NCBI GenBank assembly: GCA_037447655.1 | Contig: JBBHKE010002445.1 | Location: forward strand, 1-64,000 | Direction of reading: 5' to 3' | DNA: 64,000 nucleotides | Source: Zygnema cylindricum | Taxonomy: Eukaryota > Streptophyta > Zygnematophyceae > Zygnematales > Zygnemataceae | Part shown: positions 8,641 to 52,140 of the stretch, piece after piece | How positions within the stretch are numbered: position 1 is the first letter of the stretch | Layout of the letters: every line of letters begins with the position of its first letter | Made by a program: the position numbers and the translations under genes | Notes under the pieces: generated by a model | The model's database searches: none | The model's input: the letters and a program-made list of their open reading frames with translations, nothing else | What the model was told of the DNA's origin: nothing

Positions 8641-9391
8641 AGTCACGAATTATACGATTCAATCGGAAAAATTGAAAAATCGCACGATTTGAACAATTAT
8701 GGTCAAGTTCCATCAGTCGTTTCTATAATCGTACAGCCAACTCTACTAGCCGTGTTGATTGAGTCGATGATCAATCACGAAGAGTATGTAAACCACGTGT
8801 TCTAAATTGACTGACACCACGTAAGCTACGATCCGATATTGAATATCCTCAAGATTTTTACCACCGACAAATTTTACTTCAAGTCTTCACTTGCGTACAA
8901 AGTCATCATACGACATAACTTTAATACTTTTTCCATACGCCTGTCTTCTACGCCAACTCATTATTTAAGGTTCCTGTTTTCAAACATAATGAAAGTCTTT
9001 TGACAGAAACAGTGTGACCAACAAATGTTACCTAAAATAGCGTGACGAAAGAGCGTTACGAAATAACATTTTTATTTTCGGTTCTATTTTGAAAAGCACG
9101 TGTCATGTGCAACTTTTGTGAATTTTCGTTGGTTTTCCATCGTGACACGTAGCTCAATCGTCCAACGTGTCGCGATTCATTTTTTTCCATAGCTATCAAC
9201 CCACCTCTTACAGCAAAGTTGTCAGCTACAGAGAAATATGAAGCGAACGCCTCGCGACAGAAAATCCAACGGTTAGTGTTACCTCCCAAACCTTCGATGA
9301 TTTGGCAAGATTCTCTGTAATGTTGTTTCGTGCATAAAAACAAAATAAGTGGTACGGTTTGGTACTAATAGGCGCGGATTTCTGTGAACTA
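8641..9391. other. Intergenic DNA, nothing recognised
   Basis: A short poly-T and scattered GTAC words only. The minus open frame at 9056-9343 has no recognisable domain. Confidence 0.35.
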
Positions 9392-27585: not shown

Positions 27586-28560
27586 TGTAATAGGATTTCT
27601 AACCTGTTAGAAAATCCCATTACTTCAATCAATTTCAACCACACATTCCACACATTGGAAAATACACATCCACATTGGAAAACACTCACATAAGGATAAA
27701 CTTTAAATTAGAAGAAGCTTCTGTCCACATAACATTAGCTTGGTCTCTTGCCCTCGTGGCTCAACCCTTCTTATTAAAGTGTTTTCCTCTACTCTCCACT
27801 CTTAATAATTCTATCTCTTAACTATTAAAACACTACTTAGTTTGTAAGAGATTTCAATGCCAAAATGCCAATGCTCCAATTTGGTTTTAATCACTCAAGA
27901 CCAAGATCAGTCACATTTTCCACAAACTTTTCCAAAGGAAAAGATTTTAACTCTCCTCTTCAACTTCACTATTTATCCATCATCGCCTTGGACTTGCCAG
28001 GCCAGAGTCAAGGCTCCGTTGAACAGGTTTTACCTGGGCCAATCATTGATTAGCAAGGACTCAAACTTACCAATGCAAAAACGTGCGAAATCTCTTACTA
28101 ACTACGTAGCATTTCTAACCAATCAAACGCGGCGTTTCACTACGTAACATTTACTTGCAAAAGTGCGCACCAAACGAAACGCGACTTCGCACGAACGTGC
28201 GTCGCAAATTTCGCACGCGAAACTTCCTACGAAATTCCATAAACTGAAAATGACGTTTCGTACTAAAAATTGTACGAAACGAACCATCGTGCGTACCAAA
28301 CGAAATATTGATTTGGTTTAGTACTTTATAAACGTACGCCTTAAATTCCGCGTGTAGTTTGACCCTTAACCCGTAACATTGAACACCTAATCGTTATTTT
28401 GACCTCGCGTTGTCGCTTAAATACACCAATCACTATATCTTTTAAAATACAACCCAAAATCGTGCGATTCTTTCGCGGACGTCGATCAAATTCCAAAATC
28501 TATTTTCGTAATAATTAAATACCCATTTACGAACAAGTTCGATCCACTAGTACTGTTACA
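27586..28560 (-). repeat. Gypsy 3' LTR
   Basis: 975 bp; closely matches the LTR at 33691-34645. Length differences come from a duplicated CCACATTGGAAAA word near 27665-27690 and small indels. GC-rich AACGAAACGCGACTTCGCAC and ACGAAACG words cluster at 28150-28310. Confidence 0.9.
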
Positions 28561-28574
28561 TCATCCCCTCTTTA
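28561..28574 (-). other. Gypsy polypurine tract
   Basis: On the minus strand AAAGAGGGGATGA abuts the LTR, the expected position for plus-strand priming. Confidence 0.75.
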
Positions 28575-29940
28575 TATTTAAATGACCTCAGTTAAAACAC
28601 ATTTTATTCTGAAGACGTGACTTCTATATTATTATCCCTCCAATACCTTTGCAAAAAATCAGAATTTTTATCTTCTAAAGTTAACTCATCTTTTGGCCTT
28701 CCTAGATAATGCACTTGCCAGAATATAATATTGCCGACCTTAAACCGTTGACCAACCCAATTTATTACCTATCTGTGAACCTCAAGTTCTATAATTATTG
28801 AGGGATCCAATTCCAATTCTCTTTCAGTTGGTCGAAGATTTGCTGGTGTTAACTAGCTGATTTGTATAATTGGATGAATTTTTGTTGAAGGCGGAAAGTC
28901 TAATTTGGCAGCAATTGACGATATCATCTCAATTACAGTAAATGGTACGATGTACTTAGGAGAAAATTTACCAGTAGGATCCGCTTGTCCCTCGATCTTG
29001 CACCTATAACAAGTTGTTGAAAGCCAAACCTTGTCACCTGTTCCTACCATCCAATCACCCCGTTTGCGGTTACCATTTAGTTCTTGCCTTCATTTTGCCT
29101 CCACTAATGCATCTCGGACTGTTTTCCAAACCGTTTGAATGTATTCCCAAAATTACGTTCCATAACCCTTATTTTCTTGAGTGATCCATGTTATTAAGTC
29201 TAATGCTTATCTCGGTTGGTATCCGTATGCAACTTCAAACGGTGAGAATCATGTACTAGCATGTTTACATGAATTGTATGCAAATTCCATTTATGGCAAT
29301 TTAGATTCCCATGTGTTGTGAACTCTAGTGCAAACAGTTCTTAGCATTTCTTCCAGTGTACGGTTCATCCTTTCTGTCTGTCCATCTGTTTGAGGATGAT
29401 AAGAGGTACTCATTTTTAATTCAGTGCTTTAATTTTGGTGCAATTCTTTCCAAAATGCAAATGTAAATTTAGAATCCCTATCTGTGACTATAGACAAGGG
29501 AATTCCATGATGTCTGACCACGTTGTCAAAATATAACTTTGCAATATCTACAACTGAATGAGTAGTTTTGCAAGGGATAAAGATTGCCATTTTACTGAAC
29601 CAATTGACTATGACCTTGATACTGTCATTTCTTCTAGATGTAGCTGGTAACTTGACAATAAAATCCATACTGACAAATTCCCATGGTCTTTCGGGAATAT
29701 CCAAAGGTTTTAAGAGACCTCTAGGCTTTTGGTTAGTAGGTTTACTCTGTTGGCAAGGGACACAACTTTCTACGTGTTTCGACACCTCATTTGCCATCCC
29801 TGGCCAAAACAATCTACTCTTCAACCGACTAAAAGTTTTATCTCGACCTAGATGTCCTAAATGCTCATGGGCTTTCGTAAAAGTTGTTTTCTTAAGTCTC
29901 CCATTTCAAAAATGCATAACCTATCCCCGGTTCGCAAATA
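28575..29940 (-). pseudogene. Gypsy integrase, broken, with possible chromodomain remnant
   Basis: The best frame is 29429-29824. It has an HHCC zinc-binding end (CVPCQQSK preceded by a His-rich GHLGRDKTF stretch upstream), then the catalytic core with first Asp in SMDFIVKLP and second Asp in IVTDRDSKF. The third residue lies past a stop, in YHPQTDGQTERMNRTLEE at about 29340-29405. Another frame at 28853-29050 has WLSTTCYRCK and KFSPKYIVPFTV, typical of the gypsy integrase C-terminus. A short downstream tail (VHYLGRPKDELTLEDKN) could be a decayed chromodomain. At least five stops interrupt it. Confidence 0.8.
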
Positions 29941-30179
29941 CAGTAAACCATCTTCTATTCTAAAGTTTTTGACATACCTCTCATTCAATAGGTCAGAATT
30001 CCCTCTCGAAATATTTTTGCGAATCATTACAAAATAAGGGTCTTTATCATACCATTTCTAACAACATCTAAAAACAATTCATCGCGAACCATCACAGTTA
30101 TTTCAAAACATCTACTTAAAGGATATGCGATTACATTTGTCTTTCCAAGAACATGTTTTCAATTAATTTTTGAAATATG

Positions 30180-30775
30180 CTAATTTCTGCATCTACCTAA
30201 CGTGTTTGCAGTCATAATTTGTGCATCACGTAATCCTTGTAGATAAGCGAGTGCCTTATTATCATAGTGAACTGTAAATTCTTTATTATGCAAATAACAA
30301 CGCCATTTCACTAATGCATGAACAATTGCAAATAATTCTTTTTCCTGTGCCGGTTTGTTTTTTTCAGCATCATTAAATTTTCTCGACTAAAAAGCAATAG
30401 GATGAAAATGTTTGCCGACTTTTTGACTTATGACTGCACCTAGACATTTATCAGATGCATCAGTAGTGATCAGAATTTCAAATTCCCCAGCAAGATCAGG
30501 ATAGACCAGTGTAGGGGCAAAGGTCAACTTCCCTTTTAGTTCTTAGAAAGCTCTTTCTTGATCGGCTCCCCACAAAAACGTCTCTTTCTCGCGAAGTAAA
30601 TCTGTCAATGGTGCGGCGATCACACTGAAGTTCCCAATAAATTTCCTGTAATAAGTGGCCAATCCAAAAAATGATCTAACTTTTGTGACATTAGTGGGTT
30701 GCTTCCAATTTTGTATTCCAGTTTTAGTGGTGTCTGATTTAGCAATAAGATCAATGTTAGTGTTTCCCCACACCC
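30180..30775 (-). pseudogene. Gypsy RT thumb and RNase H remnant
   Basis: The frame 30543-30773 contains VRSFFGLATYYRKFI followed by FSVIAAPLTDLLR, the conserved end of gypsy reverse transcriptase leading into RNase H. The following sequence, with stops, reads ITTDASDKCLGAVISQKVG and KELFAIVHALVKWR, RNase H motifs with the first Asp visible. The palm with the catalytic YxDD motif is absent upstream: the sequence jumps near 30770 from the protease linker to the thumb. Confidence 0.8.
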
Positions 30776-30982
30776 TTTATCAGTAACTGCCTTAGTTACA
30801 AATAACAAGAAAGTATGATTTGTTTTATCTTTTAATTGCTTTTTAAATTGTTTAGCAGAAATCAAACCTTCCACTCCTAACTTGGTTATGTAATTTTTAT
30901 GATTCCTATGCAATTTCTTCGAAGATAATGCTTGTAAAACCTTCCAACCGTTTTCAGACTTCACTTTCAAGGTGCTAGTTTC

Positions 30983-31270
30983 TTAATTAATTTGAGGGTA
31001 ATGTTCAGTTAACCAAGGCTTTCCGAGTATTAGCTCCTCACTACCCAAATTCATTATTTCACACACAACAGTCATTTTATGACCTTGGATATCAACTTCT
31101 ATTGTGTCAGTTTGTAAATCTAATGTGGACTTATTACCATTTGCCACTTGAACATGTAAAGGTTTTTCCCTTATAATTGTAGGAATTTTATTTTCCTCAA
31201 CAAACTTATGTGAAATAAAATTATATGTTGCACTTGAATCTACCATAACTCTCAATGGTTTTCTTTCCAC
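30983..31270 (-). pseudogene. Gypsy aspartic protease
   Basis: A 95-codon frame beginning KPLRVMVDSSATYNFISH, matching the retropepsin active-site region; the usual D-S/T-G is DSS here, so glycine is lost. It continues with the EELILGKPWL segment typical of gypsy proteases. The linker downstream (30620-30970, other frame) contains LISAKQFKKQLKDK and HTFLLFVTKAV, the usual protease-RT spacer. Confidence 0.8.
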
Positions 31271-31632
31271 TAAAGACTCAAATCAGATCAAATTGTGTTT
31301 GGTGTCATCGTTACTTAACTGTCCTAACATAGGTCTATCGTTAAAAGTTTCATCAGAAGGATTTTTCAAACTATGGAGTGTAGTTAGCACCATAATAAAT
31401 TCAGCTATCCTATCCTTTCCATTCATTAACTTGCCCTCTAGAGTTAACTCTTTAACCTCTGGATGTGATCGACTCAATTGAGGATTTTTAGCGAGTCTTT
31501 TATGTTTTCCACCTCCTGGACTTCCTATTCAGCTAGGTATAATGCAATATCTTCTTGAAGACCTTCATTGACATCAACTGTTTTAAGAGATCCCTTATCT
31601 TTACATTCATTAGCGCAATGATCTGAACCTCC

Positions 31633-32896
31633 TCAATTAAAACAAGTGACTTTCTTCTTCGGTTTTGTGCATTCTTTGCTGAAATGTCCCTCCTTTCCAC
31701 AGTTATAACAGTTAATTTTCTTCAATTGTCCATATTTTGATGCCCTATGACCTCTTCTTTTCAGACAAATAATGCATATGGGAATGGGAAAATTAGGTTT
31801 CTGAGCATTAATGCTCGGTTTAGGACTCTTAATGTAGCCTTGTCTATTCTGAAATTTATTTTGTGCATTAACACTTTGTCCACCCCTCTGATTTCCCCTG
31901 AAGATATTATGCCTATTAACCAAACCTGCATTCAGACCTTCTTCCTCAAATTCCTCCTCACCCCACTCTGATACTTTATTGAAATTTCCCCTGAGTGATT
32001 GAGTTTCACGATTATACCCGAACTGATCCTCTAATTCCAATGACTTATCTTGTAATTCCTTTCAACTTAATTAATTCTTGATGTTTCAGTCCTGATTTCA
32101 GTATACGATTTAGATAGTTCAAAAAATGCAATCTAGCCATTTCTTCAGTCAAACCTATGACATGAATGTTGGATGAGTCAAATTCCACAAAATAATCTTT
32201 CACAGATTCAGTTTGCTTCCTAGCCATTTCATTAGTCAAACCTGTGACATGAATGTTGGATGAGTCAAATTCCACAATATAATACTTCAGAGATTCAGTT
32301 TGCTTATAGTTCAACCAATTTTCTTCCATTATGGATTTACTTTTTTCCTATTCTGGATTTATAAGTGACAGACAAGAAACGCGATTTGATCGCGGTTTTA
32401 AAAATTTTCCCAATCAGTATTATCAAGAATCAAATTAGACCTCCTCTGAGTGTAATACCAAATTTGAGCATCACCTTTCAGACAGCTAACAGCAAAAAAA
32501 AGTGTAATCATCACGATCACAGTTTCTAGATTCGAAATAATACTCCAAATGAAAAATCCAAGCATCTAACTCATCAATCTTCTTACCATCAAATGATGGT
32601 GCTTCAATGATAGACAATTTCAGATCCCATATCTTCTTAGGTGTATCGTGATTATCTTCCCTAAAATTGGCATTTTTCTTACTACTCTCACCTTTTTGGT
32701 CATTAACATTATTTCTAGTGTGAATTAAATTAATTAGCTCATCCAATTTTTGACTTGAAACATTTTCATTTTCTTTAATATCCTTCAATTCACTTTTCAA
32801 CTCAAAAATTGTTTCATCCACAGCAGCAGCATGATTATTAAATCTTTTGACCAATTTCACACTACATTTCTTCAAAACATTTAAGGCATTTTCCAT
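31633..32896 (-). pseudogene. Gypsy gag, broken into three frames
   Basis: The N-terminal part (32486-32896) is charged and probably coiled-coil, followed by SFDGKKIDELDAWIFHLEYY, the gypsy gag capsid motif. The middle part (32045-32329) has a tandem duplication of about 93 bp encoding repeated QTESxKxYxVEFDSSNIHV. The C-terminal part (31633-32040) has a zinc knuckle CYNCGKEGHFSKEC. Frameshifts separate the parts. Confidence 0.82.
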
Positions 32897-33672
32897 GCCG
32901 AATTTGCCATTATCACAAAAATAAAATCGAGTACAAGAAAGATAGAATATAATTTCCCAAAGAAATTTGCTGCAGGTTTAAAGTCCTCTGATTGCTCCAA
33001 TACAATACTTTTTCTCTTTAACAAATCCTTTGAAAAAGATAAAAAGTTGAGAAATCAATAAGACATTGAAAGTAAGTTAGTGCAAATTCAATTATTCAAT
33101 TTCCCAAATATTGATGCAAAAAGGTAAGAATTTCCCCACAAATTTTGCAACAGAAAAATTGAAAGCTCTTAAAGGTAAGGTTCAACCATAAATTTTGCAA
33201 CAACAAAATTGAAAAGCTCTCAAATGTAACAATTTAGGGTTTGAAAAGTCATAAGTCATTTATGGACTCATTTGCTCTTAAAGAAGTAAAGTGCTCCACT
33301 TTCCTTATCCACTATTAGCAAATTTCCCATTTCCCACTACATCTGGATCTTTTGTTCTCTAATCCTCACATCCTCACCCTTCATGGCTTTAAGCCTTCCC
33401 TGTACACATGAATCATTGCTAGGAGAAAGCAAGTTTGTTTGGCCTCTAAGTAATTGGAGTGAGTTTCAGCGGTGGCTACACTGCCCACCCCGCCTTAGTC
33501 TTTATGACCTGAGCACGCCCCACATCTAACCAGCGGCCGCTGGCAGTGTATCACCCAGTTTCCCTCCAATCCCCTACCACTTCACATTGTGGTTCTACCG
33601 ACATAGGTTAGAGCAACCTCACCGGTCACAGCAGTCGATATTCGAGTGAGCAAACTTCTCCTTGGTTTCTAA
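32897..33672 (-). other. Gypsy 5' leader
   Basis: Non-coding stretch between the primer site and gag on the minus strand. It includes an approximately 60-bp tandem duplication (AAATTTTGCAACARMAAAATTGAAAG words at 33136-33215). Confidence 0.6.
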
Positions 33673-33676
33673 CCAA

Positions 33677-33688
33677 GCTTTGATACCA
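33677..33688 (-). other. Gypsy primer binding site (initiator tRNA-Met 3' end)
   Basis: On the minus strand TGGTATCAAAGC follows the LTR after two bases; it differs by one base from TGGTATCAGAGC, the complement of the plant initiator tRNA-Met 3' end. Confidence 0.85.
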
Positions 33689-33690
33689 TA

Positions 33691-34645
33691 TGTAATAGGA
33701 TTTCTAACCTCTCAGAAAATCCTATTACTTCTATTTATTTCAACCACACATTCCACACATTGGAAAGCACTCACCTAAGGATAAACTTTAAATTAGAAGG
33801 AGCTTCTGTCCAAATAACATTAGCTTGGTCTCTTGCCCTCGTGGGTAAACCCTTCTTATTAAAGTGTTTTCCTCTACTCTCCACTCTTAATAATTCTATC
33901 TCTTACCTATTAAAACACTACTTAGTTTGTAAGAGATTTCAATGCCAAAATGCCAATGCTCCAATATGGTTTTAATCGCTCAAGACCAAAATCAGTCACA
34001 TTTTCCACAAACTTTTCCAAAGTAAAAGATTTTTACTCTCCTCTTCGACTTCACTATTTATCTATCATCGCCTTGGACTCGCCAGGCCAAAGTCAACGCT
34101 CCGTTGAACAGGTTTTACTTGGGCCAATCATTGATCAGCAATAACTCAAACTGACCAATGCAAAAACGTGCGAAATCTCTTACTAACTACGTAGCATTTC
34201 TAACCAATCAAACGCGACGTTTCACTGCGTAACATTTACGTGCAAAAGTGTTCGCCAAACGAAACGCAACTTCGCACAAACATGCGTCGCAAATTTCGCA
34301 CGCGAAACTTCCTACGAAATTCCATAAACTGAAAGTGACGTTTCGTACTAAAAATTGTACGAAACAAACCATCGTGCGTACCAAACGAAATATTGATTTC
34401 GTTTAGTACTTTATAAACGTACGCCTTAAATTCCACGGATAGTTTGACCCTTAACCCGTAACAATGAACACCCAATCGTTATTTTGACCTCGCGCTGTCG
34501 CCTAAATACACCAATCACTATATCTTTTAAAATACAACCCCAAATCGTGCGATTCTTTCGCGGACATTTATCAAATTCAAAACTATATTTTCGTAATACC
34601 TAAATACCCATTTACGAAGAAGTTCGATCCACTATTACTGTTACA
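33691..34645 (-). repeat. Gypsy 5' LTR
   Basis: 955 bp, TGTAATAGG to CTGTTACA as read on the plus strand; same landmarks as the other LTR. Confidence 0.9.
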
Positions 34646-34826: not shown

Positions 34827-35040
34827 CCTATTAGGGTTAATACTTAATAACTTTTTCGTCAATTATAACATCTTTTCTCCATACACATTTGTCCGATTTT
34901 CAATTTGAGACCGCCTATTGGAAGCTGCAAATCTTACTTTACAATCGCAACCGTGAGATCCAAAATAAGGCACATGTCTACGACAAAAAGATGTTTTAAG
35001 TGGCGAAAAAAATTATTGACCCTTACAGCCATACACGGTG
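34827..35040 (+). mobile_element. Family F MITE, copy F3, left end truncated
   Basis: Begins CCTATTAGGGTTAAT directly at the end of H1 DNA and has F core arms TTTTCTCCATACACATTTGTC and AAAAAGATGTTTTAAGTGGC, ending CATACACGGTG before TA. Confidence 0.72.
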
Positions 35041-35281
35041 TACAGATCCATGAACCATTCAGTCGGGTTTGCAACTTTATAGTTTTGTTACATGACCAAG
35101 GTTCGATTGTTCAAAATTTCCTGTCACTTGAAGCACATTTTCAGTATACGTTTTGCCCATAGAATGTTTGTATAATATACTTTTTGTAAACAAAATGACG
35201 TGACGCTCAAATATTTCGAATACAATGTAAAAAAATAGATATTGAACAGGTTTCGATATCAAACTGGTGAATGTTAGGTTA

Positions 35282-35491
35282 CATTGTGTATCGTTATTAG
35301 TGTTGATGTTTTTTTTGCCACTTAAATCATCTTTTCTCCGTACACACTTGTCGAATTGTGGATCTGACGGTTGGAATTGAAGCCTCAGCTTGTGGTTGGC
35401 GCTCTCAAACTGGAAATCAAACAAATGTGTACGGAGAAAAAATGTTCAAAGTGGCAAAATAAATAATTAACACTAATAGCGATTCATGGTG
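35282..35491 (+). mobile_element. Family F MITE, copy F4
   Basis: 210 bp flanked by TA (35280-35281, 35492-35493). Starts CATTGTGTATCGTTATTAG and ends CTAATAGCGATTCATGGTG. Internal arms TCTCCGTACACACTTGTC and AATGTGTACGGAGAAAA. Confidence 0.84.
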
Positions 35492-35493
35492 TA

Positions 35494-36894
35494 GCATATG
35501 AAGAAACGTTAGTGTACCTTAAATCGACATTGAACTATTGGATTTAACTTCAATCTGTAGCGATGAACTTTTCTCGTCGCTGTAACAAATTGTTACCCCG
35601 GAAATCACGGAACAAAAAGACGCCAACAAACATCAGTAAAAATACAATTCACTATTTTTGGTATGCCGTAAAATTCACACGTCAAATAAATATTTTAAAA
35701 GTATGCCACGTCGGATACTTTCAAAAAGTATGCCACGTCAGATTCTAAAAGGTACGACGTAACTGCAAAAGATAATCGAAACGACAAAGTACCGCGAGAA
35801 ATTTAAACTTGAAATAGAACCAGGAAAGTCCGATGTAACTCAAAAGAACTATGAAATTCAAATTCTTGATTTCAAAATCATTCAAATTTCTTAGTAAGCA
35901 AAATTTGAATGTTTCAATCCGATGTAGCTTAGTTCGTTATATTCAAGGAAGAACTGTGTTAGTTTAAGAAGTATATAATTACCATTGTAGGAAGCAAAAA
36001 AACCATCAGATTAGTTTACATTGTATGTTTACATTCTTATCAATATTAAAAAAATTGCATTTGCCTTGTGTTCTGTGTAAGTTTGAATGTGAATATTGAA
36101 GTGTAAATCTGATCAAGTATAATCTGAGTGTTTCAGAAGGTTATTATGGTCAGAAGGGAAGTAATTATCTGAATGTTAGTAAGATAAATTGACTTCAAGG
36201 TCTGACATCTGATTTCTTATGTGTCCAAGGTATATTGTTTGATAAAAGTTGAGACTTTAGAAGTCAAGATACTTTGAAGTAATTATAAGGATTCTGTGAA
36301 GAGTGTTGTTTAGGCAGTTTAAGGTTGCTTAGCTGTGAGTGATCAGTCAATATGGATGATCAAAGTTTACATGATCGTTTGAAACGTTAAACCTTTAGTG
36401 TCGTGCAAGAGTTAACACTTTTCCTCTCACACAAAAAATTGAACCAACAAAATCTTTATAATCACTAATGGCCACCATTTTTCGGGACATTTTTTTTTCT
36501 TCTTTTGCGCTTGTTCATTAAGATGTCATTTGTTAGCTTGCCTTTGTTTGTGTGTCAGCTTCCTTTGCACTTCTTTTCCTTTTAGTTTGCTTCCACCCGG
36601 TTTCAATTTTTCAGTTTAAGTTTTGCCTTTTGGATAGGACGACAACTACACAAGTCCATTAGCTCCGTAATAACGAAAAGATGTTTACATTTTTAAACTC
36701 TCCTTGTGTTTCAATCCAAAATCGGCATCACCTCTTCATGGTTGACCACCTTTTACACGCGGTGAAGTACTAATTATGCTTTGCCACACCTTGTGTTTCG
36801 TCCCCTTAAATACAACAATTTTCTTTAGCATTTAATGTAATTGCTCTTCAACTTCACCCCACTCACCGAGATTGAAACTATCACCGACGATAAA
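35494..36894. other. AT-rich intergenic DNA
   Basis: No TE terminus or exon recognised. Confidence 0.35.
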
Positions 36895-36899
36895 TCTCT

Positions 36900-37929
36900 T
36901 GCATAAATAAAAAGGTTATTTTAGTATTTTCTAGGTTTTGCAAAATGCAGAAAAGAAGCAGAGGGAGTCTGCCTCTAACTTCTCTCTTCAGCTCCCACAC
37001 TTGTCGTAGTCACTGAAGGTTGAAGAGGGAGCAAGAGCCATGGCTGCCTATGCTGATTAGAGATAGAGTTACGGGTTGTAGATTTTGGTAGATTTACCAA
37101 AATATAAATTGACAGACCCAGGATTTGAACCGGGTACCTAAATCCACTTTTAGCTTGTAGCCTTAGCCATTTAGTCTGCCATCATGCTTGGAGGTGTATG
37201 GTTTATTAGTTTATTAAATGTTAACACGTAGTCTATTTCATCTAACGGGATCTTTAAACATAGATACAATTTGTAAAGTACGGCGTACGGAACATTCGAA
37301 ACGAATACTGCGTATTTTGTTTAGAAAGCGAAAGAAATACTGCGGAAGTATTTATGACGGTCACGATTGTAACCCGGCTTAATCAGACGGCCACGAAGCA
37401 TGCCGAGATCGTGGAATAGGTTTTCGGCGGTTTGCGGTTGACGTCACGTCAATTGCCACGTGGCACAATCACATTGGATTACGACATCTCCTGGGATTCC
37501 AAGAACGAATCCAAAAATGACATGTGTCGACTTTTTGGCCATGTTGTACAATATCCGTACATAAAGTACAGCGGTACATGTACCTTTATGTACGATACAC
37601 TATTATGATTGGTGCCGTACTTCAGTAGATGAGTTTTAGAGAGAGATAGGACTTAGAAAAATTTGATTGATTAGACCCTCTCTCCTAGAGAGCTCCTGTA
37701 CAAAAGGTCAACTTTGACCCTTCATAACTCACTGCTCAAGGGAGCAAATTCAGAGATTCTTTTTGCTATAGACTCATGGTAGTCTTGCCTTTACAGGGGT
37801 GAAGGTGGTCAGAGTTTTGGTCAGCCAGGGTGGCAGTTATTCTTGCTGAAACACAAAGGGGTCAGGGTTATTCTAGAGGCTTCGTGTGAGCTGCCTACTC
37901 TGAGGTCCTATGGAGGTCTCAGAGTTACA
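36900..37929 (+). repeat. Copia A 5' LTR
   Basis: Starts TGCATAAATAAAAAGG and ends CAGAGTTACA. Contains the antisense tRNA-like module at 37112-37189, GATTGGTGCCGTACTTCAG at about 37610, and CCTCTCTCCTAGAGAG. An ATG at 37910, inside the LTR, is in frame with gag. Confidence 0.95.
37112..37189 (-). ncRNA. tRNA-like module in copia A 5' LTR (antisense to element)
   Basis: On the minus strand there is a box-A-like TGGCAGACTAAATGG followed by CTAAGGC, and 50 bases later GGTTCAAATCC, a perfect pol III B box. The T-stem pairs with one mismatch; the acceptor ends do not pair, so this is a tRNA-derived remnant, not a tRNA gene. The same module is at the same relative position in the other A, B, C and D LTRs. 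Confidence 0.55.
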
Positions 37930-37945
37930 GGTTATGGGCCCACCA
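37930..37945 (+). other. Copia A primer binding site (anticodon region of initiator tRNA-Met)
   Basis: GGTTATGGGCCCACCA abuts the LTR end. Its complement TGGTGGGCCCATAACC matches the anticodon arm of plant initiator tRNA-Met as known to me. This is the half-tRNA priming mode known from Drosophila copia, not the usual 3'-end priming. Confidence 0.82.
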
Positions 37946-38883
37946 TCTAGGGTGCCAATATTCAATAGAGTTGGCTTCATATACTGGGAAAGTATGATGA
38001 CAGGAGCTCTATGTGAGAAACGGTTTTGGGGAATAGTGAGTGGACGGGTGAGGCGTCCATCCAGTCTTGGGATACCTCCAGGGTTTACAGGAGGAAAATT
38101 CACTAGGGATGCAGATTCATCTTCAACGGAGGAGACAAAGGAAGGAGAGGTGATGGACAAATGCAAGGAGAAGGAGACGGTCACGCCAATAGCAACCGGT
38201 TCGGCATTCATGTCACCTATTCCAAGGAACGAGGAGAATGATATCGATACGTGGGACTACAACAATATGGCGGCTAAGCATTTCATCCTCCGCCATCTTA
38301 CTCAAGGGCTTGCATCTCCCCATTTGCAAGTAGAGAGGGCATCCGATCTTTGGATGGCTCTCATAGAGATGTACCGAAGTGGTACGATTCAACAACAACA
38401 GTTGGCTGATTAGAAAATTAATGAGTATGTATACAAAGGGGGGAAGATGTTGGATTTTTGCAATGAGCTTGCTACACTTTTCATGGAACTAGAAAGTGCT
38501 GGAAAAGTATTTAGTGAAAAGGAAAAGGTTAACTGTTTACTGATGAAGTTACTCGAGGAGTTGGAGAACATAGTCAACTGTGTGCAGGACTTGGCGGACT
38601 CAAGGTGGATTTGAATTCAGTGGTAGGGATGATTCTCGTTCGCGAGAATACAATTGAGATCCGAAGGGGAGGAAAGAGTGGGCAAGCTTTGGCAGCCGGG
38701 ATTGAATGGCGAAACAATGATTCTAGAAAACAGGTTGGAAATTATCGGGGGGAGGGGCAGAAAAATCAGACCGAGGAGTTCGGACCAAGGACTCCTAAGG
38801 GAGCCATTTTTGTAAGAAACCCGGGCACTATATGGCTGAATGCACTAAGTTAACCGAGCTGCGGTTAAAGGAGGGGCTGACTG
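37934..38883 (+). pseudogene. Copia A gag, broken, split by TRIM
   Basis: The likely start is the ATG at 37934 inside the primer site; the in-frame ATG at 37910 in the LTR is the alternative. The frame runs to a TAG at 38411 where copia B has a coding triplet at the next conserved positions (ADQKxxEYVYKGGKMLDF), consistent with a CAG to TAG change. After further frame changes the zinc knuckle reads CKKPGHYMAEC, with the first Cys of the CCHC motif replaced. Capsid motifs include IFNRVGFIYWESMM and HFILRHLTQGLASPHL. The TRIM interrupts just after the knuckle. Confidence 0.85.
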
Positions 38884-38936
38884 TGTTAGATTTCCTAGAA
38901 ATCCGGGATTCGGCATGTCCCACACTTGGGAAAATT

Positions 38937-39007
38937 GAGCCGGCCAGGGTTCGAACCTGGGACCTTTCACTTCAGCTGCGAACGCACTACCACTGTGCCA
39001 CCAGCTC
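38937..39007 (-). ncRNA. tRNA-like cloverleaf in TRIM LTR 1
   Basis: 71 nt. Acceptor GAGCTGG with CCGGCTC (7 pairs, one G-T); D arm GCAC/GTGC around AGTGGTA; anticodon arm TTCGC/GTGAA (one wobble) around AGCTGAA; 5-nt variable loop; T arm CCAGG/CCTGG around TTCGAAC. Box A TGGCACAGTGG fits the consensus and box B GGTTCGAACCC has one deviation. A TTTT run starts two bases after the cloverleaf. The base before the CTG anticodon is G instead of T, so a normal translating tRNA is unlikely. Confidence 0.85.
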
Positions 39008-39222
39008 GATGTTGAGACTGGCGGGTCCGTACCCATTTATTACGGGCGGCTCGAGTATGGATATTTCCATATTCTACCCCGTATTGGACCGGCTTCACGT
39101 GCCAATCCAACACCCCCCCTCACGGGAAAGCCGGTCAAACCATCCGCAATCCCGCTGGCTCCGATACCATGTTAGATTTCCTAGAAATCCGGGATTCGGC
39201 ATGTCCCACACTTGGGAAAATT

Positions 39223-39293
39223 GAGCCGGCCAGGGTTCGAACCTGGGACCTTTCACTTCAGCTGCGAACGCACTACCACTGTGCCACCAGCTC
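39223..39293 (-). ncRNA. tRNA-like cloverleaf in TRIM LTR 2
   Basis: Identical to the copy at 38937-39007, including A and B boxes and the downstream TTTT. Confidence 0.85.
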
Positions 39294-39403
39294 GATGTTG
39301 AGACTGGCGGGTCCGTACCCATTTATTACGGGCGGCTCGAGTATGGATATTTCCATATTCTACCCCGTATTGGACCGGCTTCACGTGCCAATCCAACAGA
39401 CTG

Positions 39404-40557
39404 GTGGACCCCCGAGAGGAAAGAAAAAGGTCCTTGTGACGCAGGTACATGAGGCGGAATCCGAGGACGAGGACGATGAACTCCTATTGGATGAGGAGTT
39501 GGAAACGAAAAACGAGGTCGAAATTCCACGAAAACAGAAATGTGCTTTCGGTGGATTGAAAGGTGAAGCAGGCTGGATTGTAGATTCAAGAGCATCCATG
39601 CACATGTGTAAAGATAAACACCTGTTCACTAAGATACGAGAGATTCCCACCGTAGAGATAGAGTACGGGGATGGGAGGATAGTCACAACTACTCTTGTAG
39701 GATCGGTAGATCTAAAAGTGTTAGTAGAAGGAAAGACATCTATAGTTACATTCTCCGATGTGTTGTTTATTCCGGAGCTGAACAAAAACCTCATCTCTAC
39801 GTCTGTTTTAGATGATAAGGGTTTTCATACTAGCACTAGGAAAGGAGTCTTTACTGCTAGCTTTGAGGAGGAAGTTTATTTCACTGCTCAAAAAGGTAGC
39901 CAAGGGATGTTTAGGCTGATTTTAAGCAATGAAAAGAAGAAACTTTATTATACTGGTGTTCATGATATAATGTTGTGGCATAAGAGGCTTGGGCATGTGA
40001 ATCTAGATAAGTTAAGAGAGATGAAAAAGATGGGAGTAGTGGAAGGGATTCAGTTCGGTGAAAGTGAGAATCTAAGTGATTGTAGTGGATGTGCTCTAGG
40101 TAAAGCACACAGGTTACCCTTCCAAAAAACTGCCACCTATAAGGGAGAAAAGATTCTAGATTTAGTACACACAGATATTTGGGGGCCGGCCAGAGTGCCA
40201 TCACCCGGGGGAAAGAGATTTATGATGACTATAACTGATGATTGGTCTCGGTATTCCAGGGTGTATTTTTTGAAAAATAAGTCAAAGGCTCAAGAATGCT
40301 TTAAACAATATAAAGCATGGAGTGAAAAACTCCATGAAACCTCAATCAAGAGAGTAAGGAGTGACAATGGTGGAGAGTATACCTCTAACCAGTTTGAGGA
40401 TTTTTTGAGAGAAGATGGAGTGCATCACCAAAAGATAGTTCCTGAAAATCCTGAGCAGAATGGTGTAGCTGAAAGATTAAATAGAACACTGAGTGATAGT
40501 GCTATGAGTATGCTGTCCGATAAGAAGATAGGAAAGAAGTTTTGGGCCGAGCAATGA
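39404..40557 (+). pseudogene. Copia A protease and integrase
   Basis: Open to 40557, but its first ATG lies in the TRIM, so the long frame start at 39169 is an artefact of insertion. The protease site reads WIVDSRASMHMC, where copia normally has DSGAS, so Gly is Arg here (a G to A change). The integrase zinc finger has LWHKRLGHVN and DCSGCALGKAHRLPF. Catalytic residues are visible in VHTDIWGPA (D), VRSDNGGEYTS (D) and PENPEQNGVAERLNRTL (E). The frame is lost at WAEQ: alignment with copia B implies a small deletion in codons for EAMNC. The rest of the polyprotein is at 40558-42767. Confidence 0.92.
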
Positions 40558-41747
40558 ACTGTGCAAATTATCTCAAAAATAGAGTTCTTACTTCAGCAGT
40601 AAAAGGCCAAACACCTTATGAGAGATAGACAGGCCGAAAACCACATGTTTCACACTTAGAGGTTTTCGGTAGTCAAGTGTTCAGTTTAGACATAGATCGA
40701 TCAAACTGGAAGTTAGACCCAAAAGGAAAACCAAGATATCTACTAGGATATGATGATGATGTAAAAGGATATAGAGTCTATGATCTCAAAAGAGAGGATA
40801 TTATTCTAGTGAAGGATCAAGTGGTTATGGATGAAGGAAAATCTTTTGATCCCTTTAAGCATACAAGGACAGTCAAGATCAGATTTGAGTCAGAAAATTC
40901 TGATGACTTTGAGCTTCCTAACTATCCACAATTTCAAGAAGATGATGATCTTGCAGGTATGGATCAGATCGAGAAGGACCCAAATGTGGAACCCCTTGTA
41001 TTAACTCCAACCGAAGCGGAAGACGTGGTGGAAATCGACCCGGAATCAAGGGATAGGGGAGAAGTAGAAACTATTCGGAAAAATCCAAGAGAACCATCTA
41101 TTCCGGCAACCGAGTTTGAGGGAGGAAGAAGAAGCACCAAAAGACTGCAAGAGAGACAAGTTAACAATAAGGTAACCAAACTGTCTCACCCCGATGAACC
41201 TCAAACTTATAATGAGGCAATGACTTGTCCTGAAAGAAACCGGTGGAAAACAACCATAAATGAGGAGATGGCCTCAATTATGGCGGCCGATACATGGGAA
41301 TTGGTGGATTGTCCTCTTGACAAGAAGCCAATTGGGTGTAAGTGGGTATTTAAGCTCAAACTCAACCCGGATAACACCATTGAGCGCTACAAGGCTCGGT
41401 TAGTGGCGAAGGGATTTACCCAGAAAGAGGGAATTGACTACGAGGAGACTTTTGCTCCGGTCGTTAGGTTTCCTTCGGTTCGGATACTTCTCAGTATGGC
41501 GGTAGCAGAAGACATGGAAGTGCATCAGATGGACATCAAGACGGCCTTCCTACATGGAGAGTTGGAAGAGGAAATTTTTATGCGACAGCCCGAAGGATTT
41601 GTGGAGCAAGGGGAGGAAAGCAAGGTATGCTGATTGATCAAATCTTTGTATGGGCTGAAACAGGCGCCCCGGCAATGGAACAAGAAGCTCTATGAGTTTC
41701 TTACAGGTTTGGGATATATTCGGATCAGCTAAGATCACTCTATATAT
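40558..41747 (+). pseudogene. Copia A reverse transcriptase, N-terminal part
   Basis: The main frame is 40677-41633. It covers the integrase C-terminal tail (SQVFSLDIDRSNWKLDP, KGYRVYDLKREDIILVKD), an acidic linker, then the RT start: TWELVDCPLDKKPIGCKWVF, ERYKARLVAKGFTQKEGIDY, HQMDIKTAFLHGELEE (first catalytic Asp). A TAG at about 40627 (in YER-stop-TG), TGA at 41632 (VC-stop-LIKSLYGLKQ, where copia B has Arg) and TAA at 41731 interrupt it; the TGA fits CGA to TGA and the TAG fits TGG to TAG. Confidence 0.9.
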
Positions 41748-42767
41748 TTGTTTGAAGATGAGGAAGGAATTATTTTTATTGCAATTTTTGTCGATGATTT
41801 GCTTGTTTTAAGTAAATCTATGGATAAAATAAATAAGTTGAAAAATGATTTAAAAGGAAGATTTGAGATGAAGGATATGGGAGAAGCAAAGTATATTTTG
41901 GGAATTCAGTTAGAAAGGGACAGAGAGAGAAAGATAATCAGATTAACTCAAAAAGAGGCCATTGGAAACATGTTAGAAAAATTCCAAATGGACAAGGCTA
42001 ATAGTTGTACCACTCCTATGGATTTAAAGAAGGGAAGTGAGGGGAGTGAGGAAGAGGGAGTTATAATCTTAGATGATGAGGTAAGCCCGGAAGAGAAAAG
42101 ATTTATGCATACCATCCCTTATAGACAAGTAGTGGGCAGCCTAATATATTTTATGAATTGTACCCGTCCGGACATAGCCGCAGCTGTAGGAGTACTAAGT
42201 AGGAGTCTGAATGCTCCCACTAAGAAAGATTGGGAGGCAGCTAAGAGAGTCCTTAGATATCTCATAGGAACTAGGGATCTATGGTTGCATTTGGGTGGGA
42301 AAAATACTGACATCACCACTTGGAGTGATGCCAGCTATAGGGATGCTCCTATGAGGAGATGCACATCTGGATATGTATTGTATGTGGGTGATGGGGCTTG
42401 CTGCTGGAGCAGCAAGCAGCAAAAGGTCATTGCTCAGTCCACAATGGAGGCTGAGTACATGGCTTTTTGCTCTGCTGTAAAAGAATTAATGTGGGTCAAG
42501 TCTTTGCTTGGTGAGCTTGGTCAACTTAAGAGTGGTGTCCAAAAAGTGTTTTGTGATAATCAGGCTGCCATTGCCATTTCTGCCAATCCTAAACATCACT
42601 TTAAAGCCAAACACATGGACATTAGGCTTAGCTTTGTTAGGGAGAAAGTAGAAAACAAGATAATCAGTTTGGAGTATAAACTAGATAGTGAAATGGTAGC
42701 TGATATGATGACCAAACCTGTTCCTTCCCCTAAACTAATTTTCTGCCGGGAGAAGTGTGGTCTTTAA
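41748..42767 (+). pseudogene. Copia A reverse transcriptase C-terminal part and RNase H
   Basis: Uninterrupted 339-codon frame. The catalytic pair is in IFVDDLLVLSK (copia FVDD/YVDD box), followed by MKDMGEAKYILGIQL and the connection TIPYRQVVGSLIYFM. RNase H has WSDASYRDAPMRRCTSGYV (first Asp), STMEAEYMAFCSAVKELMWV (Glu), FCDNQAAIAIS (Asp) and KHMDIRLSFVREKVEN. It ends KPVPSPKLIFCREKCGL. The start is internal to the polyprotein, after the stop at about 41731. Confidence 0.93.
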
Positions 42768-42782
42768 ATAAAGAGTGACTAG

Positions 42783-42795
42783 AAAATAAGGGTAG
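42783..42795 (+). other. Copia A polypurine tract
   Basis: AAAATAAGGGTAGTG region just before the 3' LTR; copia B has AAATAAGGGGAG at the same place. Confidence 0.6.
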
Positions 42796-43825
42796 TGTAG
42801 AAATAAAAAGGTTATTTTAGTATTTTCTAGGTTTTGCAAAATGCAGAAAAGAAGCAGAGGCAGTCTGCCTCTAACTTCTCTCTTCAGCTCCCACACTTGT
42901 CGTAGTCACTGAAGGTTGAAGAGGGAGCAAGAGCCATGGCTGCCTATGCTGATTAGAGATAGAGTTACGGGTTGTAGATTTTGGTAGATTTACCAAAATA
43001 TAAATTGACAAACCCAGGATTTGAACCGGGTACCTAAATCCACTTTTAGCTTGTAGCCTTAGCCATTTAGTCTGCCATCATGCTTGGAGGTGTATGGTTT
43101 ATTAGTTTATTAAATGTTAACACGTAGTCTATTTCATCTAACGGGATCTTTAAATATAGATACAATTTGTAAAGAACGGCGTACGGAACATTCGAAACAA
43201 ATACTGCGCATTTTGTTTAGAAAGCGAAAGAAATACTGCGAAAGTATGTATGACGGTCACTATTGTAACCCGGCTTAATCGGACGGCCACGAAGCATGCC
43301 GAGATCGTGGAATAGGTTTTCGGCGGTTTGCGGTTGACGTCACGTCAATTGCCACGTGGCACAATCACATTGGATTACGACATCTCCTGGGATTCCAAGA
43401 ACGAATCCAAAAATGACATGTGTCGACTTTTTGGCCATGTTGTACAATATCCGTACATAAAGTACAGCGGTACATGTACCTTTATGTACGATACACTATT
43501 ATGATTGGTGCCGTACTTCAGTAGATGAGTTTTAGAGAGAGATAGGACTTAGAAAAATTTGATTGATTAGACCCTCTCTCCCAGAGAGCTCCTGTACAAA
43601 AGGTCAACTTTGACCCTTCATAACTCACTGCTCAGGGGAGCAAATTCAGAGATTCTTTTTGCTATAGACTCAGGGGAGTCTTGCCTTTATAGGGGTGAAT
43701 GTGGTCAGAGTTTTGTTCTGCCAGGGTGGCAGTTATTCTTGCTGAAACACAAAGGGGTCAGGGTTATCCTAGAGGCTTCGTGTGAGCTGCCTACTCTGAG
43801 GTCCTATGGAGGTCTCAGAGTTACA
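42796..43825 (+). repeat. Copia A 3' LTR
   Basis: 1030 bp, TGTAGAAATAAAAAGG to CAGAGTTACA; same length as the 5' LTR. Carries the antisense tRNA-like module at 43008-43085. Confidence 0.95.
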
Positions 43826-45444: not shown

Positions 45445-47410
45445 TCTAGGGTTCCCATTTTCAATGGAACAAGGTTCATTTATTGGGAAACCATGATGAG
45501 GGGTGCATTGTTTAAAAAACGGCTATGGGGCATTGTGAGTGGTTGTGTGCGTCGGCCATCCGCAAAATTGGGAGTTCCACCTGGGTTTGGAGTATCTCGA
45601 TTCACACAAGGATCAGCGGGAGTAGATGAAGCAGGGGATGTTGGAGAAAGCATCGTGTCGAACACATGGAAGGAGAAGGGGAAGGAGAAACTCACACTGG
45701 TGGCTATTGTTCTGGTAGCAGATGTTAAGAAAACCAAATGATAGTGGAATCTGGGATTTCGACAATACCGTAGCGACTCATTTTATTCTCGGGCGTCTCA
45801 CTCAAGCAGTGGCTACACCCCATCTAAATGTGGAGTGTTGATATTTGAGTATTTTATAGGTTTTTATTTAGGATAGAACAAAGAGCAGAGGTAGTAGGAT
45901 TTAAGTACCGGACAAAATAAATAGTACAAACATTTGTTTCGACGGTCCGCATTAAATGCCGATATAAATTGGATGTCCGTGGTTAAGCACCGGCTTCGCT
46001 GAAAGGATAATTTGGCGGTTTGCGAACGTCATAACTGCAGATGACACGTGGCGACATCGTACAGGTTGGGGAATCTTCGGAACGCAAGATAACAAGTTTG
46101 GATGTGACAGCTGTCACTTGTAGGGTTTTGTCGTATAGTTGCCGTGTAGAAAGTACTCTTGCGCCTATACTTTTTTGTACGGTACAGTCCTGTGATTGGC
46201 GCCGTACTTCAATAGAAGGGGTTTAGAGAGGGACTAGGACTTAGAATTTTTGGGTAGGTAGCCGCCTCTCTCATAGAGAGCACCTTATATAATAGGCTAA
46301 CTTTGAGCAGTTATAACTATCAACTCAGTTGACCAAATTCAGTGATTCTTTTTGCTGCAAACTCAAGGGAATCCAAGCTACACAAAGGTGTAGTCGGTCA
46401 AAGTGTTTGCTTGTTAGGGTGGCTGCATTCGGAAGGGAAAGTCAAAGTGGGGAATGTTATCCAAAACTCATATTCTAACTTTGCATTCTGTGGTGGAACC
46501 GAGCACACAAAATTTCTTATTTCACAAGGGTATGGTGTAATGGGGTTTTTGTTGTCAATGGGTCAATTGTTTAGGTTTATATAAACTTGGAGTCGGCACT
46601 ATCTAGATTAGCTTCTTTGGATCTGCGAATTATGTGTGGCAATGGAGCCCCTAGAATTTCATAGCCCCTAGAATTTCATAGAGAGGTCAAACGAGTTGTG
46701 GGAGGCTCTTGTCAACATTTACAAGAGCGGTACGATTCAGCAGCAAAAGGTGGCAGATTAGAAGGCACAGGCATATGTGTACAAAGGTGGGAAGATGTTA
46801 GACTTTTCTAATGACTTGGCCGGGTTATATATTGAGTTGTAGAGTGTAGGAAAGAGGGAGACAGAGAAAGAGAAGGTGAATACTTTGTTAGTGAAACTCT
46901 TTGATGATTATCAAAACATTATCAATAGGGTTGAGGACGGACTTGCCAGATCTTCGATAGATTTGGAACTCTGGTGTAGAGATGATTTTGGTTCAGGATA
47001 GCACAATTGAGATTTGGAGAGGAGGAAAGAGTGTTCAAGCATTAGCTGCTGGAACTATTTGGGGGGATAAGGATTGTAAGAAACCTTAGGGAAACTTTGA
47101 TGGAGGAGGAAGAGGAAACCATGACGGATCAAGATCAAGGCATTCGAAGGGGCTTTGTCACATTTGTAAGAAGCCAAGACATTACATGGCGGAGTGTACC
47201 AAACTGACAAAGTTGAGATTAAAAGATGAACAGGTCAAAAACCCAGCCGCTAGGAAAAATAAGGCATTTGTGGCAACACAAGTCATCGGAGAGGATCCCG
47301 ATGAGGACGATGGAGAACTCCTCCTCAACAAAGAGTTGGAGGTGAAAGGTGAGCAGGAGATTCCAATGAGGCAAAAGTGTGCTTTCGGAGAAGTAAGAGA
47401 AGCTCTTGAA
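45433..47410 (+). pseudogene. Copia B gag, broken, split by a solo LTR
   Basis: The start matches copia A (MGPPSRVPIFN; alternative upstream ATG at 45409). Open to 45741, then frameshifts. The nested LTR (45836-46678) splits the capsid at the position equivalent to LQVERASDL in A. After it come LWEALVNIYKSGTIQQQKVAD and YVYKGGKMLDFSNDLA, then the intact-looking zinc knuckle CHICKKPRHYMAEC (C-x2-C-x4-H-x4-C) at about 47158-47200, and a frame 47186-47419 leading to the protease. Confidence 0.8.
45836..46678 (+). mobile_element. Solo LTR of lineage C nested in copia B gag
   Basis: Starts TGTTGATATTTGAG and ends GAATTTCA, flanked by TGGAG (45831-45835) and TAGAG (46679-46683), 4/5 of a TSD. It matches the solo LTR at 13885-15050 but is shorter (843 bp) because roughly 300 bp near its start, including the tRNA-like module, is missing. 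A short tandem copy of CCCCTAGAATTTCATAG is at its right end. Confidence 0.85.
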
Positions 47411-51818: not shown

Positions 51819-51879
51819 CCTTCTCCCTTAGCAAATGGGACATAATTTATAAGTTGTTTTTGTCGGTCAACGTCCACTA

Positions 51880-52096
51880 CACCGTGTAACGCTATTAGTG
51901 TTAATAATATTTATGCCACTTAATTCATATTTTCACCGCACACACTTGTCTAATTTTCACATTGAGACCGCCAATCGAAAGCTGAGAATCTTACCTTTCA
52001 ATTGAAATCGTCAGATCCTTAATCCGACATGTGTGTACGAAGAAAAAATGTTTTAAGAAAAGAAAAAAACATTAATGCTTATAGCGATTCATGGTG
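51880..52096 (+). mobile_element. Family F MITE, copy F5
   Basis: 217 bp flanked by TA (51878-51879, 52097-52098). Starts CACCGTGTAACGCTATTAG and ends TATAGCGATTCATGGTG, with the F internal arms around the ACACACTTGTC and ATGTGTGTACG words. Confidence 0.84.
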
Positions 52097-52140
52097 TACT
52101 TTCGTGGCTTTGGACTTTAATTTCTCAAGGTTGTGGATAG

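Follow-up and report, generated by a model that had tools for sequence, protein, structure and literature searches.

The 64,000-nucleotide stretch of Zygnema cylindricum DNA analyzed here (contig JBBHKE010002445.1, positions 1 to 64,000; hereafter the window) contains a TRIM with a total length of 515 bp. Its two LTRs of 229 bp are identical to each other (0/229 differences), and they enclose a non-coding interior of 57 bp (39113-39169, minus strand). The element has two LTRs, is shorter than 1,000 bp, lacks coding capacity for mobilization, and carries a primer binding site (PBS) and a polypurine tract inside, which is the build of a TRIM. Its sense strand is the minus strand, with the PBS TGGTATCGGAGCC, of the initiator tRNA-Met 3'-end type (39157-39169), following the 5' LTR (39170-39398) and the polypurine tract GTGAGGGGGGG (39113-39123) preceding the 3' LTR (38884-39112). 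The target site duplication (TSD) GACTG stands at 38879-38883, on the 3' side of the element in its own sense, and again at 39399-39403. The identical LTRs, the TSD, the initiator-Met-type PBS, and the purine tract, from which the first-pass annotation had assembled a complete TRIM in 515 bp, were thus all found.

Both LTRs contain a tRNA-like sequence of 72 nt on the minus strand (LTR positions 106-177), located at 38936-39007 in the 3' LTR and at 39222-39293 in the 5' LTR, where the first base, 39293, is the putative start of R. This part scores 53.6 bits against the Rfam tRNA model (E = 9.9e-9, above the gathering cut), is called tRNA-Gln(CTG) by ARAGORN, and forms 21 of the 21 cloverleaf pairs; the cloverleaf described earlier for each LTR therefore stands, and its length of 71 nt becomes 72 nt when the discriminator base is counted. 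Box A TGGCACAGTGG (39276-39286 in the 5' LTR, minus), box B GGTTCGAACCC (39233-39243, minus), and a downstream TTTT are present as claimed. The TTTT lies one base past the end of the tRNA-like part (38931-38934 and 39217-39220, minus), and these two are the only runs of four or more T in the 515-nt sense strand. Upstream of the tRNA-like part, there is a CAA triplet at a distance of 5-7 nt (39012-39014 in the 3' LTR and 39298-39300 in the 5' LTR, both minus) and, in the 5' LTR, a TATA-like TAATAAAT at 28-35 nt (39321-39328, minus). A scan of the window for paired boxes A and B returned the two TRIM sites and one weak site (8684-8748), against a mean of 0.33 in 30 first-order shuffles. The minimum free energy of the 72-nt part by itself is not unusual (z = -0.66 relative to shuffles).

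The tRNA-like part is not the primer of the element, since it does not match the PBS complement: the longest perfect complement to the PBS region is 5 nt, and its 3'-end 13-mer with CCA added agrees with the PBS complement at 7 of 13 positions. Within the element, Rfam finds tRNA only and no 5S rRNA, the feature of Cassandra LTRs. U33 is present in the anticodon loop of nearly all tRNAs; the loop here reads AGCTGAA and lacks the U33 expected of a decoding tRNA. A decoding role for this sequence is therefore improbable.

The TRIM interrupts a Copia element on the plus strand (36905-43825; LTRs placed by BLAST at 36905-37929 and 42801-43825) with the Pfam domains Pol_BBD, gag_pre-integrs, rve, SH3_retrovirus, and RVT_2. 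A second Copia in the window aligns with the sequence to the left and right of the TRIM (38331-38699 to 46679-47052, and 39466 onward to 47300 onward), and the stretch between the aligned parts measures 766 bp with the TRIM and 247 bp in the second Copia, a difference of 519 where 520 is expected for the TRIM plus its duplication. The TRIM was therefore inserted into an older element, and its description as very young is borne out by 0/229 differences between its LTRs, compared with 19/1025 between those of the surrounding Copia (98.1% alike). At the end of its 5' LTR, the interrupted Copia has a PBS-like GGTTATGGGCCCACC (from 37930), which we take to resemble the anticodon region of initiator tRNA-Met and not its 3' end. 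Priming of this anticodon-region type by initiator tRNA has been described (PMC10886601). We set this Copia aside as the autonomous partner because its GGTTATGGGCCCACC looks like the anticodon-region type and the PBS of the TRIM is of the 3'-end type. A Gypsy element on the minus strand (27586-34645; LTRs 27586-28560 and 33691-34645, 92% alike) is a possible partner type: its PBS-like TGGTATCAAAGC (33677-33688) occurs as the same sequence in 6 of 77 TRIM PBSs, but the TRIM matched the rest of the window only in short stretches at chance level. Foreign sequence upstream of one TRIM copy elsewhere (locus L105) was also considered as a partner LTR and rejected, as its matches, which at some places lie about 3.1 kb apart, represent another repeat and end before the TRIM part (best 40 of 3216 candidates scored). 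Neither the element nor its pieces had matches among phages, viral contigs, or genome contigs, which is no surprise for an element of eukaryotes.

Several other repeats of the window were noted along the way. The 1-kb LTRs of the interrupted Copia carry a degenerate antisense tRNA-like stretch (about 37108-37190) with box B GGTTCAAATCC (37121-37131 and 43017-43027, minus), which lies below detection by Rfam and ARAGORN. In a related LTR at 15.1-16.1 kb, the tRNA-like stretch appears more diverged than the remaining LTR. A dispersed repeat of about 200 bp, roughly 70-80% alike among its copies, occurs in both orientations at 2531-2757, 6669-6897, 34844-35043, 35280-35494, and 51876-52102.

To place the element in its genome, 352,776,454 bases in 2689 contigs were searched. 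With the LTR plus interior as the query, at least 92 matches were obtained (best 40 of 985 first-look candidates scored). The tRNA-like 72-mer with up to 3 mismatches had 326 hits, compared with 228 and 207 for two 72-mers from U3 searched under the same mismatch limit, and backward-read control patterns of the tRNA-like and U3 72-mers had 0 hits each. Given the Rfam E value of the tRNA-like part and its 326 hits against 0 for the reversed pattern, its presence is not due to chance. From loci that were either among the best matches or matched the tRNA-like part or U3 exactly (L001-L110, which lean to young copies), 157 distinct full LTRs were aligned, and their majority sequence is the LTR of the window. 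The groups with intact ends comprised 40 two-LTR copies, 26 solo LTRs, 8 clusters of 3-5 LTRs, and 1 other, so that the search recommended earlier for copies and solo LTRs yielded both, with LTR clusters besides. Identical 5-bp TSDs flank 30/40 two-LTR copies, 11/26 solo LTRs, 8/8 clusters, and 1/1 other; these are retrotransposed copies with the short TSD of a TRIM, at the 5-bp length of Helenus in plants and fungi. The clusters keep a single outside TSD (8/8), which fits insertion as arrays and later unequal exchange alike. LTR pair identity in the 40 two-LTR copies ranged from 90.8 to 100% (6 at 100%), and the 77 PBSs consisted of TGGTATCGGAGCC (57), TGGTATCAGAGCC (13), TGGTATCAAAGCC (6), and 1 other.

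Within this family (family 1), the tRNA-like part is not better conserved than its surroundings. In the 51 LTRs of the young copies L001-L030, it had 28/3668 differences, compared with 20/5352 in U3 and 10/2652 in U5 (30/8004 for U3 plus U5; Fisher p = 0.007). We note separately that this amounts to about twice the differences of the remaining LTR in the same 51 LTRs. Among 87 LTRs not seeded on the tRNA-like part, variants common to at least 3 copies were not fewer there (3/72 positions, compared with 3/105 in U3 and 4/52 in U5). The idea that the tRNA-like part decays more slowly in family 1 had been entertained and was rejected, because the impression came from seeding on exact tRNA-like matches and was gone in these 87 unseeded LTRs. 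With the tRNA-like part not better conserved among family 1 copies, these copies decay freely once inserted, in line with their being non-autonomous.

The pattern used to detect LTR fragments that begin at LTR position 105 also brought up a second TRIM family (L111-L116 and L118-L123). The 16 extracted LTRs of family 2 are 206-234 bp long (222 in 7) and run from TGTTGACG to TTAACA; in five displayed copies, the PBS is TGGTATCAAAGCC (twice), TGGTATCAGAGCC, TGGTAACAGAGCC, or TGGTATCGGAGCC, and one copy (L112) has AGTTC flanking both sides. The tRNA-like part of one L112 LTR is identical to that of family 1 at 69 of 72 positions without a gap, and all 3 differences lie in loops, leaving 21/21 pairs and boxes A and B intact in both families; one of them, G to T at position 35 of the tRNA-like part, alters the third base of the anticodon. 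In the same comparison, U3 1-84 agrees at 53/69 ungapped positions with 20 gap columns and U5 at 35/50 with 7 gap columns. The search seed for family 2 covered nt 1-33 of the tRNA-like part, where identity is therefore selected; outside the seed, the tRNA-like part agrees at 36/39 positions, compared with 105/139 ungapped positions elsewhere in the LTR (Fisher p = 0.025 for this one family pair, or p = 0.0002 when gap columns count as differences). The tRNA-like part is thus conserved between families while the remaining LTR drifted, which is new evidence. The decay test proposed by the first-pass annotation, cloverleaf against flank, accordingly splits: between families the cloverleaf outlasts its flanks, and among copies of family 1 it does not. 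It is only the between-family comparison and the higher genome-wide pattern count that speak for a constraint on the tRNA-like part. No TTTT follows the tRNA-like part in the displayed family 2 loci (L111-L116 and L123), and 15 of the 16 extracted LTRs have no TTTT at all; therefore, the terminator TTTT is not conserved. A TATATAAAAA lies about 32 nt before the tRNA-like start in family 2.

Copies that lack the 5' side of the LTR bear on where the RNA begins. L001-L122 contain 93 distinct exact copies of the tRNA-like 72-mer; the LTR is complete on the 5' side of 85 of them, and 8 are cut, two at contig ends (L049 and L086) and six in the interior of contigs. The interior cuts begin at LTR positions 90 (L046), 99 (L036), 104 (L042), 105 (L035), 106 (L047), and 106 (L077), so that 4/6 start at 104-106, where the tRNA-like part begins, and all four reach LTR 229. 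The matches at 104 and 105 may be chance extensions of a start at 106. In this sample of six, which was selected on exact tRNA-like matches, the chance for four cuts to fall within 3 nt is 1e-5, with the width chosen afterwards. Three of the four (L035, L042, and L047) show 100% identity to the LTR and stop precisely at position 229, the boundary to the PBS; neither a tail nor a 5-bp duplication was seen at their junctions. The fourth (L077) continues through the PBS and interior to a full 3' LTR. Of the other two, L036 starts at 99 (CAA) and ends at 223, and L046 ends at 216. A search for starts at 105 had 27 hits, and the 21 examined included 1 true truncation (L035), 2 family 1 LTRs with a base change (L097 and L124), 17 hits lying in loci of family 2, and 1 (L117) whose match was confined to LTR 85-163.

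A fragment from the 5' end of the RNA to the PBS boundary is the expected minus-strand strong-stop DNA. R-U5 copies that start at 104-106 and end at the PBS boundary suggest that R probably starts at the tRNA-like part, and an RNA start placed in this way would be new evidence for elements of this kind. By this indirect route, and in a small sample, the copies also point to the tRNA-like part as what may set the RNA 5' end, through either a pol III start or an RNase P cut.

Elements of this build are known. Contrary to the first impression that no family of this kind had been described, TRIMs with tRNA-like LTRs were named Helenus by Kojima in 2024 (Biology 13:119, PMC10886601) and reported from fungi, animals, and Selaginella; a pol III promoter role was proposed there on sequence grounds, with experimental validation lacking. 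In the structural features tested, the TRIM fits the Helenus type, one base of box A aside: a tRNA-like sequence occurs in each LTR and is not complementary to the PBS, GGTTC and TGG are present, and TGGCA differs from TRGCY at its last base. According to the parts of PMC10886601 covered here, the likeness extends to short TRIMs with boxes A and B in both LTRs, a PBS, a PPT, and 5-bp TSDs (the fungal and plant type), and to several families per genome, solo LTRs, and, in one Helenus fish family, tandem arrays. The dimensions differ, with an LTR of 229 bp and an interior of 57 bp here, compared with 120 and 85 bp in Helenus-1_SMo, the only plant family reported in those parts; evidence on the RNA 5' end, as given here, is likewise not in them. 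Among the papers listed in literature searches, no other title or abstract opening describes tRNA-like TRIMs. The element was also rightly recognized as a tRNA counterpart of Cassandra, with a tRNA-like sequence in each LTR: Cassandra likewise has a small-RNA gene in the LTR, tandem arrays, and a short size, and its plant PBS TGGTATCAGAGC matches that of the TRIM at 11/12 bases (PMC7215508, as far as covered), a likeness that suggests a plant host; its LTR, however, contains 5S rRNA. Ajax, a nemertean TRIM, similarly holds a piece of a small-RNA promoter in its LTR, although this is a partial 5S piece and is described from two nemertean species in the covered parts of PMC10886601. Like the TRIM, tRNA-derived SINEs are short, non-coding mobile elements with pol III boxes A and B, but they have no LTR, PBS, or PPT and are moved by non-LTR elements (same source). 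The family and its sister family are hence of a kind known since 2024, and such repeats number in the hundreds in this genome, where they form two families or more.

On balance, we consider it fairly likely that this Helenus-type TRIM has an LTR that works as a tRNA gene-like pol III unit, with its RNA beginning at the tRNA-like part. The TRIM would be moved in trans by the enzymes of an LTR retrotransposon. Its LTR would act as a pol III unit, with the TATA-like motif and CAA upstream, boxes A and B inside, and TTTT downstream, and the RNA would begin in the 5' LTR in one of two ways, to judge from the truncated copies: (i) by a pol III start just upstream of the tRNA-like part or (ii) by an RNase P cut at its first base. 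The transcript would then pass the first TTTT and presumably end at or after the TTTT of the 3' LTR, giving U3 as LTR 1-105, R as about 106-182, and U5 as about 183-229. Initiator tRNA-Met would prime at the PBS, and the tRNA-shaped R would carry the first strand transfer. That the tRNA fold itself works in the life cycle, with an RNase P cut at the first tRNA-like base defining R and the template 5' end, is a tentative further step that we regard as doubtful; the starts at 104-106, the one at CAA, and the confinement of between-family differences to loops fit it. A possible pol III role gains support from the conservation between families, the plant-type upstream elements, and the truncated copies starting at the tRNA-like 5' end. 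According to the covered parts of PMC11700998, plant tRNA genes may combine A and B boxes and a T run with an upstream TATA and CAA, the upstream elements occurring in only a fraction of them, and CAA triplets within 10 nt are reported start sites.

The same LTR could be read as that of a pol II TRIM, transcribed from the TATA in U3. The tRNA-like part would then be a piece of a SINE or tRNA that was captured and retained for some other reason, for example a folded R in strand transfer or an effect on chromatin. A distance of about 32 nt before the start is the usual pol II TATA spacing, and the TATATAAAAA of family 2, at about this distance from the tRNA-like start, would give the same RNA start; moreover, family 2 has not kept the terminator TTTT, and in family 1 a pol III transcript started in the 5' LTR has to read through the TTTT lying downstream. 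However, boxes A and B are intact in both families with 3/3 differences in loops, and an upstream TATA and CAA also belong to plant tRNA genes (PMC11700998, covered in part). We judge this reading unlikely.

The R-U5 copies themselves invite other explanations. They could be deletions after normal insertion that removed U3 and about 100 bp of flank and stopped by chance at the 5' edge of the tRNA-like part. Target loss relative to homologues is indeed 99 bp in L035 (one homologue), 92-111 bp in L042 (among ten matches listed), and 98-101 bp in L047 (in 8 of 10 matches listed; 266 and 620 in the other two), and a loss of about 100 bp in 3/4 R-U5 copies is not predicted by strong-stop capture alone. 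Nevertheless, three independent sites plus L077 share an inner endpoint within 3 nt, which makes chance deletion improbable. Even less probable is that the fragments are relics of an ancestral SINE (a tRNA head with a short tail) inserted into the LTR rather than cDNA ends: the 5' boundary would be identical, at the tRNA-like start, and SINE insertion was proposed by Kojima as the origin of Helenus (PMC10886601, covered in part), yet 100% identity to the young LTR, an end exactly at LTR 229, and no tail at the junction were seen in L035, L042, and L047. Finally, a working tRNA gene spread by the element is scarcely credible despite the ARAGORN call and a Rfam score above the gathering cut, as the loop has G in the place of U33, family 2 alters the third anticodon base, and many Helenus show isotype disagreement (PMC10886601, covered in part).

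Taken as a Helenus-type pol III unit, the element offers many young copies in two families, which make the pol III question on Helenus, a group proposed on the basis of sequence alone, testable. Its truncated copies place a likely 5' end of the RNA at the tRNA-like part, and comparing the two families shows what is kept. In addition, tRNA gene counts in such genomes are expected to be inflated by these LTRs, as Kojima found in rust fungi (PMC10886601, covered in part).
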